NCBI RefSeq assembly: GCF_011752015.1
Contig: NZ_JAAIKA010000003.1
Span: 1-64,000 of the forward strand
Length of the DNA: 64,000 bases
Origin: Canibacter zhoujuaniae
Lineage (GTDB): Bacteria; Actinomycetota; Actinomycetes; Actinomycetales; Microbacteriaceae
Direction: 5' to 3'
In this document: positions 15,805 through 20,907 of the stretch, piece after piece
Layout: every line of letters starts with the position of its first letter
Numbering within the stretch: the first letter of the stretch is position 1
The notes under the pieces: model-generated
What the model saw: only the letters and a program-made list of their open reading frames with translations
Told to the model about the DNA's origin: nothing
Database searches by the model: none
Position numbers and translations under genes: made by a program

Positions 15805-15907
15805 ACACGGGCCCGTCTTGCTCTTCTGAGAGTGTCGAGAGCCGATAATGTGAAGACAGCGGGTTTCTGCACGCCCATTTCGAGCGCCGGGCTGAGACAG
15901 TCAGGGC
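15805..15907 (+). repeat. Left copy of the 103-bp inverted repeat bounding the restriction-modification-like operon
   Basis: This segment matches the reverse complement of 20805-20907 without gaps. I count 81 of 103 identical positions. The match is concentrated in a perfect 32-bp core (15830-15861), TTTCGAG (15878-15884) and GCTGAGACAGTCA (15891-15903), with ACACGG at the outer edge (15805-15810). It ends three bases before the last codon of the operon (stop at 15911-15913). The core contains GATAAT, a possible -10 box reading inward. Confidence 0.85.
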
Positions 15908-15910
15908 AGT

Positions 15911-18490
15911 CTAAGGCGTTTCGAGGGTGATGACGGTGTCGTAGAGGCCAACTTTATGGAGGTCTTCCCGGCGATTTTGCTCCGCATGGGAGGCGTAACC
16001 GACGTAAGACAGTGAGGCGTCCTCGTAGCGGCGGAACGCAAAGACCGCCTGGTTCATATGGATAGAGTTGAAGACCCCCAGGTTCACCAGGAGGTTGAAA
16101 TCCTCCACAGATAGACCGGTGACCCGCTTGAAAAGTTCAGGCTCGATCTTGGTGATGACGTCGTAGAGCGTATTCTCCCTAAAGTCGGTCAGATACATGA
16201 ACGCGGGGATCCGGGTGGCGAACTTGATGAGCTTTTCCTGGATCTGCTTGCGCTTTGACCTATACTCCTTCTCCTCGGCTGAGAGCTCCTTCTTCTCTTT
16301 CGCGGTCAGCGAGTCGCCTTTTTCCTTCTTCGTCTTCGACACGTGTTCGCTCTTGTTCACCACGGTCTCGAAGATGTTAGCACCCAGCGCGCGGAAGCCT
16401 TCGATATTGAGGATCGCTTCCATAGCTCGCTCGTCGTTCATAATCTTCTTGAGCGTCATATTGTCGACGTTAACGAGGATCGCAGACTCCCACTTCTTTG
16501 CCAGCAGGGTGGCTGAGGTGCCAGACATGGCGATGTCGAGCACCTCGCCCGCGTCTATCTCCTGCATCGACGCACCGTCATAGGCCAGTACCGGTAGGTA
16601 GTTGACGAGCTCGGCGACAGCGTGCTCGGGGCTCTTCGCCTCCGGATGCAGCCCCGTGCCGTAGTCGGCAATCTGGTGCAGAGCGCGGGTTGGCGCGAAG
16701 TCAAAAACAAACCCCACGGGTTTGAGGATCTCCTCCCGGCGTGGGTCATCCCCATCGGGGTTCTTGATCGCCCACGGGGACTGCACCCGGAAAGCGGCCT
16801 GGAAGTAGGATTCCGGGCTGGTGAGGTTGCGCAGCATGAGGATCGATGACCACTGTTTGACGGTCACCCCGGTGGTGAGCTTGCCGCACGAGAGCGTGAT
16901 GGTTTTGGTGTCGTGCCCATCCCCGATCGCCTCACGCACGGGTGGGAGCGCTTCAACCCCAACCCCAGCGCCCGCTCCAGCGGCGACAATCACCTGGTAT
17001 TGGTGCCAGAAGGTATTGTGTCGGGCGGCGAGCAGGTTCGCCATAGCCTGGCAGGCAGCAACGTTCGGCAGATACCAGAACGAATGCTGGAGGTAGGGAA
17101 GCAGCCGGGCATCCGCGTAGGGGAAGGGCGGGCGGCCACCGGCTTTGAGCATATCCATCTGTGTGGGTGCGTGCTCGCCACGAATCAGCTCCAACCATTT
17201 CTGCACATCCGACTCGTGAACAAACCTAGCTTTGTCACCGCTGCCTGTGGCTTCGAAGAAGGTGTTGAGATCGAACTCGTCGAACTCACCCTGATGCGCG
17301 ATAGCCACTAGGTCATCGGGCATCCGGTAGGTCAAGAGCCGCATCTCCGGCAGCGCAGCATACGGGTTCCATTCTCCGGGATGCTCTGCAGCCCACTGAC
17401 GCTTAGCAAGCTGCTCGTCGGTGTAGGTCCAGTTGAAGATCTGCTCTTCAATGAACTCGCCCGTGGCCAGAGCCTTGAAGGGTGTGCCCGAGAGGTAGAG
17501 GTAGGAGCGGGTCGTGATGGGAAGAAAGTCATTCTCATCGCTGCCAAGCTCGTCGAGCTCTTCATCGAAGGCGGCCAGCCCCTCGTGGTACTCAGCTTTG
17601 AGCTCCTTGGCGGCCTCTTTTTCGTCCTCACCTTCGAAGAGAGCTTTGGCGTTGTCCCGCCAGCCACCGAAGTGGTATTCATCGAAGACCACCAGATCCC
17701 AGTTGACGGTGTGAATCCACTCGTTTTTCGGCTTGATCAGGCCGGTCTTCTTGTCGCGCCCGAGGAGGTCCTGGAAGGATCCGAAGTAGACCAAAGGCTG
17801 ATCTGCCCTAACTTCGATACCCTCATCGAGGGTTTTCGCGCTCAGATACTGCCAGCCCTCAAAATCCACATGGCTAGCGAGGTCTTCACGCCAGGCCTCT
17901 TGCACGGCAGGTTTAAAGGTCACGACCAGCACACGCTTGGCACCCATACGCTTGGCGAGCTGGTAGGTGGTGAAGGTCTTGCCGAAGCGCATCTTCGCGT
18001 TCCACAAGAAGCGCGGCACCGCGCCCGGATCCTCCTCCCAGATAGAGTTGTAATAGACGATGGTTTGCTCAACAGCGCGGGCTTGCTCGGGGCGCATCGC
18101 GAAGGTCTGGTATCGCTCACCCGTGTACTCCACGCCGGCGCGCAATTCCGCAATAGCAGTGAGCACATCAGCGGGTTTGCAGCGCACCCACTCCGTCGCT
18201 GACCCAAAGTGCGGGTTGGCAAAACCCTTCGCCTTCAGGCGCTGGATGACCTCCTTGTCACGAAAGATGCTGCCGTCCTCACGCTCAGCAATGATGTCGG
18301 CGTGCAGGGTGAACTCCTGCTGCATCTGCCCCTGGGACTGGCGGATCCGCTCGCGCACATCCTCTTTGGTCGTCTGGCCGATCTTGATTAGCCCCGCATA
18401 GCCGGCTGGAGGGTGCTTCGGTGACCACGCATAAATCCGCAGCCGTGCTGAGGGTTTTGCGGGAAGCAGCTCCTCATCCCGCCTGGGCAT
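15911..18490 (-). CDS. GIY-YIG (T5orf172-like) nuclease fused to an SF2 helicase, restriction-type
   Basis: 859 residues. The N-terminus (about 18-90) looks like a T5orf172/Mug113-type GIY-YIG domain: RIYAW, then LIKIGQT (34-40), Arg47 and Arg50, and a possible catalytic Glu80. A type III/I-like SF2 helicase follows, with a Q-motif-like RPEQARAVEQT, motif I AKMRFGKT (165-172), motif II DEYH (270-273), motif III SGTP (334-337) and a motif VI-like QAAFRVQSPW. The last 250 residues include a highly charged KTKKEKGDSLTAKEKKELSAEEKEY helix. No PD-(D/E)xK motif is evident, so the GIY-YIG domain is the candidate nuclease. It overlaps the methyltransferase gene by one base (TGATG). Restriction of foreign DNA is inferred. 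Confidence 0.82.
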   Translation of the reverse strand: MPRRDEELLPAKPSARLRIYAWSPKHPPAGYAGLIKIGQTTKEDVRERIRQSQGQMQQEFTLHADIIAEREDGSIFRDKEVIQRLKAKGFANPHFGSATEWVRCKPADVLTAIAELRAGVEYTGERYQTFAMRPEQARAVEQTIVYYNSIWEEDPGAVPRFLWNAKMRFGKTFTTYQLAKRMGAKRVLVVTFKPAVQEAWREDLASHVDFEGWQYLSAKTLDEGIEVRADQPLVYFGSFQDLLGRDKKTGLIKPKNEWIHTVNWDLVVFDEYHFGGWRDNAKALFEGEDEKEAAKELKAEYHEGLAAFDEELDELGSDENDFLPITTRSYLYLSGTPFKALATGEFIEEQIFNWTYTDEQLAKRQWAAEHPGEWNPYAALPEMRLLTYRMPDDLVAIAHQGEFDEFDLNTFFEATGSGDKARFVHESDVQKWLELIRGEHAPTQMDMLKAGGRPPFPYADARLLPYLQHSFWYLPNVAACQAMANLLAARHNTFWHQYQVIVAAGAGAGVGVEALPPVREAIGDGHDTKTITLSCGKLTTGVTVKQWSSILMLRNLTSPESYFQAAFRVQSPWAIKNPDGDDPRREEILKPVGFVFDFAPTRALHQIADYGTGLHPEAKSPEHAVAELVNYLPVLAYDGASMQEIDAGEVLDIAMSGTSATLLAKKWESAILVNVDNMTLKKIMNDERAMEAILNIEGFRALGANIFETVVNKSEHVSKTKKEKGDSLTAKEKKELSAEEKEYRSKRKQIQEKLIKFATRIPAFMYLTDFRENTLYDVITKIEPELFKRVTGLSVEDFNLLVNLGVFNSIHMNQAVFAFRRYEDASLSYVGYASHAEQNRREDLHKVGLYDTVITLETP

Positions 18491-20121: not shown

Positions 20122-20768
20122 GTCTGCTGCATTCCGCTAGCGGCAATCTCTGTCACAGTCATTGGAGGGAACGAGGTATCCGGGGTGAAGATGTCAGCGA
20201 TGTCCATGGCGCCGAACAGGGTGTCTTCCCCAAAAGCTGCACGCTTCGTCAGGTCCTGATACTGAAAGTCTCTCCGCTGAAACTTGCCCGCCCCGAGATA
20301 GCCCCACTCGGCAAATGTTAGAGGCTCACCGTTTGGGGTAGTCATGGTTAGAGCATCGGCCTGCGCAATATTGAGCGCAAGAACTGCGCGAGCTGCCGCC
20401 ACCCACGTGCCGTCAGGATCTTCACCGATGAAATCCGTGAAGATAGCCAGGAGGTTAGCGCGGCAGATCTCAGCATTATCGGCGAGCAGTTCAATACCAT
20501 AGGTGCTCATGAGGGCCAGGAGTGCATAGTGGCGGCGTTCAAAATCGTTCTTACCGTAGCGGGCTTGCACAGTCGAGAGCTTCCGGCGCAGAATCTCCTG
20601 CAGGAAGGCGCCCTCACCGCAGGCCGGCTCCAGCACGCGCGCATCGATCCGCTCCGACTCGTCCTTCACCAGGTCGAGCATATCGTTGACCATCCACTCC
20701 GGGGTGAATACCTCACCATGGTCGGCCACACGCTGCTTCGACTTAACTAGCTGCACCTGCTCGTTCAC
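20118..20768 (-). CDS. SAM-dependent methyltransferase-like protein without a visible NPPY motif
   Basis: 216 residues. It shares the start of the neighbouring enzyme (GEVFTPEWMVNDMLDL) and has a textbook motif I, RVLEPACGEGAFLQEIL, followed by STYGIELLADNAEICRANLL (motifs II-III). No [DNS]PP[YFW] catalytic motif is present, and the protein ends where a target-recognition region would begin. It may be the SAM-binding half of a split methyltransferase, a regulator of the NPPY partner, or a remnant. The GTG at 20768 is preferred because GAGGAG lies 6 nt upstream; the ATG at 20798 has no such site and would nearly reach the inverted repeat. First gene of the three-gene operon; ATGA overlap with the next. 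Confidence 0.75.
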   Translation of the reverse strand: MNEQVQLVKSKQRVADHGEVFTPEWMVNDMLDLVKDESERIDARVLEPACGEGAFLQEILRRKLSTVQARYGKNDFERRHYALLALMSTYGIELLADNAEICRANLLAIFTDFIGEDPDGTWVAAARAVLALNIAQADALTMTTPNGEPLTFAEWGYLGAGKFQRRDFQYQDLTKRAAFGEDTLFGAMDIADIFTPDTSFPPMTVTEIAASGMQQT

Positions 20769-20804
20769 TTCTTCTCCTCGCCTGCTCCAGTGTGGCATAC
20801 CGCC

Positions 20805-20907
20805 GCCTTGACTGTCTCAGCTCAACACTCGAAACGACCACGAAAAGCCACGCTGTCTTCACATTATCGGCTCTCGACACTCACACAAGAGCCAGGCAGA
20901 GCCGTGT
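20805..20907 (-). repeat. Right copy of the 103-bp inverted repeat, upstream of the operon
   Basis: Reverse-complement partner of 15805-15907, with the 32-bp core at 20851-20882, CTCGAAA at 20828-20834 and TGACTGTCTCAGC at 20809-20821. Only 36 bp separate it from the chosen operon start, so the operon promoter must lie in or very near this repeat. GATAAT in the core (minus strand) is a candidate -10 box. Confidence 0.85.

Follow-up and report, generated by a model that had tools for sequence, protein, structure and literature searches.

Inverted leader-like arms around a restriction-modification operon beside a tRNA-Thr gene of Canibacter zhoujuaniae

A three-gene restriction-modification (R-M) operon of Canibacter zhoujuaniae was found to lie between two 103-bp arms in inverted orientation, and comparison with a related locus identifies the right arm as the leader of the enclosed operon. 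The DNA analysed, called the window here, comprises positions 1 to 64,000 of contig NZ_JAAIKA010000003.1, and the coordinates of its features are collected in Table 1. The reading that we tentatively prefer, as a possibility rather than an expectation, is that the two inverted leader copies recombine with each other and that at least one past exchange inverted the operon.

The arms align as inverted copies without a gap and are identical at 81 of 103 positions, as described in a first-pass annotation of the sequence, and both the perfect 32-bp block (the core) and the 13-bp block GCTGAGACAGTCA reported there were recovered. The arm pair was the sole inverted repeat of at least 40 bp found in the window. 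The perfect blocks shared by the arms are ACACGG, GCTCTT, the core, TTTCGAG and GCTGAGACAGTCA; in the 16-bp main spacer that follows the core, 6 of 16 positions agree. The outermost 25 bp are alike at 18 of 25 positions against 32 of 32 in the core, so that the tips are not the best-kept part, and the similarity between the arms stops at the outer edge. When the 22 mismatches were placed at random, a matching run of 32 or more occurred with P = 0.002, and such a run together with a second of 13 or more with P = 0.0002. A 22-mer from the core, allowed up to three mismatches, matched at both arms only (mean over 100 shuffles, 0.00). Direct reading also revealed a dyad in both arms, formed by GCTCT before the core and AGAGC within it, 13 bases apart. 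The motif GGCTCTT, previously placed at the outer tip of the right arm, sits approximately 15 bp inside that arm, and its left copy reads TGCTCTT. The arms closely border the operon. The 3 bp given earlier between arm and last stop codon is correct, and the 36 bp given between arm and first start is true for the GTG at 20768, whereas from an in-frame ATG at 20798 the distance would be 6 bp. The GTG has a good ribosome site by reading and agrees with the listed start of the open reading frame (ORF) of the Arcanobacterium homologue.

Related operon loci were compared as the best 80 of at least 567 confirmed matches. The closest was L070 from Arcanobacterium haemolyticum ET43, whose Res protein is 93% identical and whose operon DNA matches that of the window at 85% over 2756 bases and 83% over 1466 bases. 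The region upstream of the L070 operon agreed with the right arm at 68 of 102 positions, above all 1000 shuffles, and this same single leader agreed with the left arm at 63 of 102 positions, again above all 1000 shuffles. The outer 34 bp of the right arm taken alone gave a weaker match to L070 (score 25; shuffle 95% point 19, maximum 25.5). The word GAGCCGATAATG, which contains a −10-like GATAAT, is kept in the left arm, the right arm and L070. The idea that homology to L070 ends midway along the right arm was dropped, as a wider alignment reaches the outer edge. The leader blocks were shared by none of the other 49 loci with usable flanks among the best 80; the nearest core word, in L075, had 2 mismatches in 12 and a different position, and the inner block had 6 mismatches in 19.

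A three-way comparison of the arms and L070 separated the core from the remainder. Outside the core, the left and right arms agree at 49 of 71 positions and the right arm and L070 also at 49 of 71, which makes the left arm look like an old duplicate. Within the core, the arms agree at 32 of 32 positions, compared to 19 of 31 for the right arm and L070 (Fisher p 5e-5), and within the arms the core differs from the remainder with a Fisher p of 1e-4. Both Fisher values are optimistic because the bounds of the core were set after inspection of the run, a fault that the run test of mismatch placement given above does not share. The identity of the core points to homogenisation by recombination or to a paired constraint, in which a shared binder would hold it identical.

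Integrative islands that target tRNA genes and carry a tyrosine integrase are a known class. As in such islands, direct repeats resembling attachment (att) sites surround the related operon, with an 89-bp repeat on either side of L070 in copies that are 88% alike. The window contains this att-like repeat at the 3′ end of its tRNA-Thr gene, and the repeat is 83% identical to the copies flanking the L070 operon over 22068–22167 and 88% identical over 22078–22149. The same repeat adjoins an intact tRNA-Gly in the ET43 genome (L159) and a tRNA-Gly in L196, and in L197 it stands beside a tyrosine integrase (PF00589, E 2.2e-13). We infer from these positions that the repeat serves as an att site. 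In L197, an IMG/VR contig (2388–7489), the repeat occupies 5749–5854 between an ORF that was named HsdR-like by reading and the integrase, an arrangement that suggests that actinobacteria have a family of tRNA islands with defence genes. In contrast to the known class, none of the five ORFs that separate the HerA-like gene from tRNA-Thr was recognised as an integrase, and neither was any of the three small ORFs to which the scan of the L070 island was confined.

The att-like repeat had no match at E 0.01 in the other four genomes of the genus, all of which carry tRNA-Thr(CGT). On the hydrolase side of this tRNA, gene order is kept in G001 (with 2.3 kb between), G002 and G003, and no match to that flank was found in 9.2 kb of G004. 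The 3′ sides of tRNA-Thr in the four genomes had nothing in common, with only 483 bp seen in G004. From the island markers and this variation of the flank, the region beside tRNA-Thr resembles an integration hot spot, with the R-M operon as its probable island cargo. Elsewhere in ET43 (L159, 5945–9477), the intact tRNA-Gly(CCC) is followed by two att-like copies that enclose approximately 3.3 kb, in which the two main ORFs are esterase-like and pectinacetylesterase-like. Another related operon (L161; Res 80% identical) has direct repeats of about 300 bp on its two sides, at 3362–3676 and 9915–10219, which are 66% alike.

The orientation of the operon relative to the att-like copies differs between the two genomes. 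In L070 the two flanking copies have the same direction as the operon, whereas in the window the operon is antiparallel to both copies and the partial copy, att′, starts at the right arm's outer edge. Both operons adjoin an att-like copy, and in L070 the distance from the Res stop to the repeat is 236 bp. Mentally reversing the segment between the arms of the window places the Res end next to att′, an arrangement like that in L070. The opposite orientation, together with the Res end reaching att′ on reversal, supports inversion through the arms, and we infer that recombination at the arms caused it, with the core as the exchange site. In the course of events that we propose, the operon would be cargo of an island built 3′ of tRNA-Thr by tyrosine-integrase elements, with the right arm as its normal leader and, at its tail, the left arm as an older inverted duplicate of that leader. 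The leader copies would recombine with each other, which would keep the core identical while the remainder drifts, and one or more exchanges between the arms would have inverted the operon relative to the att sequence of the island.

Leaders in mirror orientation may let the whole operon flip. If it does, it would always be read in a neighbour's direction, that of the MarR gene (−) at present and that of the HerA-like gene (+) in the other state. It seems distinctly unlikely to us, as a further step, that the operon is an invertible R-M cassette that uses its own leaders as sites and the 32-bp core for exchange, and that sets the strength of restriction of foreign DNA by being re-joined to one or other of the facing MarR and HerA transcription units. 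The first-pass annotation had offered a repeat used for recombination-based switching among its explanations; a role in recombination stays the best reading.

Several observations weigh against recombination between the arms. The contrast in orientation comes from one genome pair, and separate insertions would also explain it. Beyond the arm's outer edge, the similarity of L070 to the two window flanks was not above chance (36.5; 95% point 40.5), and the ancestral junctions were therefore not recovered. Downstream of Res in L070 there was no clear copy of the left arm (p 0.39 with one gap cost and 0.30 with another); a wider stretch that included the HerA tail scored 46.0 (95% point 44.0, maximum 56.0), so that L070 may conceivably retain a decayed relic of the left arm. 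In an ungapped test of 500 bp a side, an inverted repeat around the operon was above chance at none of 50 other loci, L070 included. The score was 54.6 for the window and 14.4 for the next locus, with a null maximum of 14 in 60 pairings; these 50 remained from the best 80 once 30 fetched loci had been set aside for lack of M2, for genes that were apart or for a contig end within 200 bp. The three operon genes include no recombinase, in agreement with the earlier remark that no transposase or integrase lies inside the segment. The leader also moves with the operon, so that inversion need not switch its expression, and the identical core could stem from binding by one protein rather than from exchange. 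The inverted repeat as a fixed trait of this R-M family was rejected on the result of 0 of 50 loci, nor was one seen at the more distant homologues in G044 and G016.

The arms might instead be paired control elements with the same promoter or operator in each, the right arm driving the operon and the left arm an antisense RNA that runs into the restriction gene; alternatively, the 5′ leader of the operon mRNA would pair with its 3′ end. This would suit a right arm that is a leader and the retention of GAGCCGATAATG, with its GATAAT, in both arms and L070, as well as the preservation of blocks next to a poorly matching main spacer. Antisense control has precedents in the EcoRI and Eco29I R-M systems, according to the portion of PMC3874152 consulted. 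In an operon mRNA read past the Res stop, the inner 52 nt could pair with the molecule's own 3′ end at a computed −70 kcal/mol, and on the operon strand 10 of the 14 transitions would still allow G-U pairing, although this wobble bias is not significant (p 0.09). However, neither arm gave a match to a sigma-70-like promoter, single arms folded as RNA no better than shuffles, and a second leader copy was seen at 0 of the 50 other loci tested, and we consider paired control somewhat unlikely. Structured RNA was also rejected as a candidate for the arms on the folding result and the lack of an Rfam match in them. If the left arm were an inert relic, left over from an old duplication or a rearrangement of the island, the core would be identical by chance or through a single conversion. 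The occurrence of the arm pair in one genome only, among the 50 loci and 29 host genomes searched, the full divergence of the main spacer and the differing 3′ sides of tRNA-Thr in the genus are consistent with a relic. We nevertheless regard it as rather unlikely, given a block structure that is improbable by chance (P 0.0002, as above) and a core far better kept than the remainder.

The first-pass annotation had also suggested a non-autonomous transposon or a cassette moved in trans, and we now find it quite improbable that the arms are terminal inverted repeats served by a transposase in trans. Inverted ends of approximately 100 bp that closely enclose acquired genes would be expected of such an element, and arm similarity does end at the outer edge, past which the L070 leader is not recognisably similar. 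However, no target duplication of at least 5 bp was above chance (the best, 5 bp at a 2-bp offset, was matched or beaten in 354 of 500 random pairings), the tips are less well kept than the core, and L070 has one end only. The hint of ISL3-type ends did not hold up either, as the transposase search of the organism's genome, made with PF01610 (ISL3) only, gave 0 matches, with 4 of 14 control genomes positive. ISL3 or other transposon ends were rejected on these grounds and on the lack of close copies. As had been supposed, the repeat is without a further copy in its own genome, where each arm matched only the two window sites, the right arm even at E 1. The right arm had no match at E 0.001 in 58 other relatives, in 397 other family genomes (a set that overlaps the 58 relatives) or in 29 host genomes of related operons, for which a single 20-bp match appeared at E 0.03; its foreign matches up to E 1 in the family genomes were 15 to 43 bp long. 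The left arm had no match at E 1e-5 in phage and plasmid collections, and the core words were absent from viral contigs and from genome contigs. The blastn search of the 29 host genomes failed to pick up the diverged leader of L070, whose genome was among them. Arm copies this distant would escape the blastn searches, and absence is therefore claimed only for closer copies. Within these collections, the lack of a further close copy also counts against the simple form of a cassette moved in trans. A repeat fixed at this one locus across the genus, which had been named as a finding that would speak against mobility, does not apply, as the search with M1 in the four other genus genomes gave no comparable methylase and two weak partial matches only, in G002.

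Recombination between the arms was also compared to known systems. The arm core holds GCCGATAATGT, which resembles one half of the actinobacterial dif consensus. A second half-site, of the kind that lies across a 6-bp spacer in Xer sites, was not recognised in the arms; with the same consensus, neither full dif sites in the arms nor the genome's own dif was found. The PluTI R-M gene complex is reportedly flanked by inverted repeats. The part of PMC3031569 consulted cites PluTI and a Rhizobium leguminosarum R-M system with inverted copies of an insertion sequence (IS) as complexes of this kind. Inverted repeats likewise enclose R-M genes in the window; unlike those described there, the repeat is the operon's own leader rather than an IS, and searches for further close copies and for target duplications were negative. 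Inverting type I hsdS systems likewise have inverted repeats that are proposed to recombine at an R-M locus, but these lie inside the specificity genes, swap target domains and sometimes have a local recombinase, whereas here the whole operon is enclosed (PMC7394358, in part). Invertons have inverted repeats at both ends of a segment, as found here, and their recombinase may be encoded elsewhere; their repeats are typically 10–20 nt and their segments often intergenic or 5′, in contrast to 103 nt around approximately 5 kb (PMC5903667, in part). In the dif modules of Acinetobacter plasmids, cargo between recombination sites can invert or delete (PMC13141974, in part). Among the titles and abstract openings searched, none pointed to an R-M operon that its own leader encloses, and a text search combining R-M operon, flanking inverted repeats, tRNA and Arcanobacterium gave no paper.

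The earlier assignment of the enclosed genes to an R-M operon was upheld, with the products Res, M1 and M2 (Table 1). Homologues of Res in PLSDB carry the names GIY-YIG nuclease or DEAD/DEAH helicase; Res itself had no Pfam match to a GIY-YIG domain, and that name derives from the PLSDB annotation and from reading of the alignment. No close solved structure was found for Res or M1. A Res alignment used to scan genome contigs yielded at least 594 pattern matches, the source of the confirmed loci above, under titles that span many phyla, and judged by these matches the three-gene R-M system is widespread. A distant DNA search for the operon returned 15 plasmid records and 2 phage records. M1 is 85–95% identical to its L070 counterpart over the first 200 residues and 91% at the end, and 12–45% identical between approximately residues 281 and 480 (window 18679–19411). 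This low identity indicates a swapped target recognition region, by which the window and L070 systems probably recognise different sequences.

Among the neighbouring genes, the HerA-like gene is probably not cargo in view of its relatives in the genus, and it sits in other gene orders in G001 and G004. Its listed ORF of 603 aa is too long, with the first ~40 residues (13981–14127) matching a conserved reverse-strand gene that reads like exonuclease III, and the true start is probably the ATG near 14159.

Table 1. Features of the operon, its arms and the adjoining region (positions in the window).
Feature	Positions	Strand	Remarks
HerA-like ATPase	14159..15792	+	near full-length relatives in 2 of 4 other genus genomes
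Left arm	15805..15907	+	apparent inverted, diverged copy of the operon leader; occupies most of the gap between HerA-like stop and Res stop
Left-arm 32-bp core	15830..15861	+	identical to right core
Res	15911..18490	-	superfamily 2 (SF2) helicase / ResIII-like restriction subunit, 859 aa
M1	18490..20121	-	Eco57I-type methylase with target recognition region, 543 aa
M2	20118..20768	-	N6-methylase-like, start GTG 20768; ORF extendable to ATG 20798
Right arm	20805..20907	-	operon's own leader by comparison; homologous along its length to A. haemolyticum L070 leader
Right-arm 32-bp core	20851..20882	-	includes GAGCCGATAATG, also present in L070
att′ (partial att-like repeat)	20908..20941	+	abuts outer edge of right arm; 20913-20941 vs L070 att1, 93% over 29 bp
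MarR-type regulator	21050..21541	-	no match at E 0.001 in 4 other genus genomes
Polyketide-cyclase-like ORF	21538..22149	-	listed start overlaps tRNA end, doubtful
att-like repeat	22064..22141	+	directly 3′ of tRNA-Thr
tRNA-Thr (CGT)	22142..22216	-	probable integration target

Transfer of R-M systems is frequent, and their activation after entry into a new cell is an unsolved question in the field. An operon flanked by two copies of its own leader would combine mobility and control in one structure, whether through inversion, antisense pairing or shared operators. The arms also caution against taking every inverted repeat around cargo for a pair of transposon ends. As a conserved sequence, the att-like repeat could in turn provide a marker for a family of tRNA islands with which defence genes pass between actinobacterial genera.

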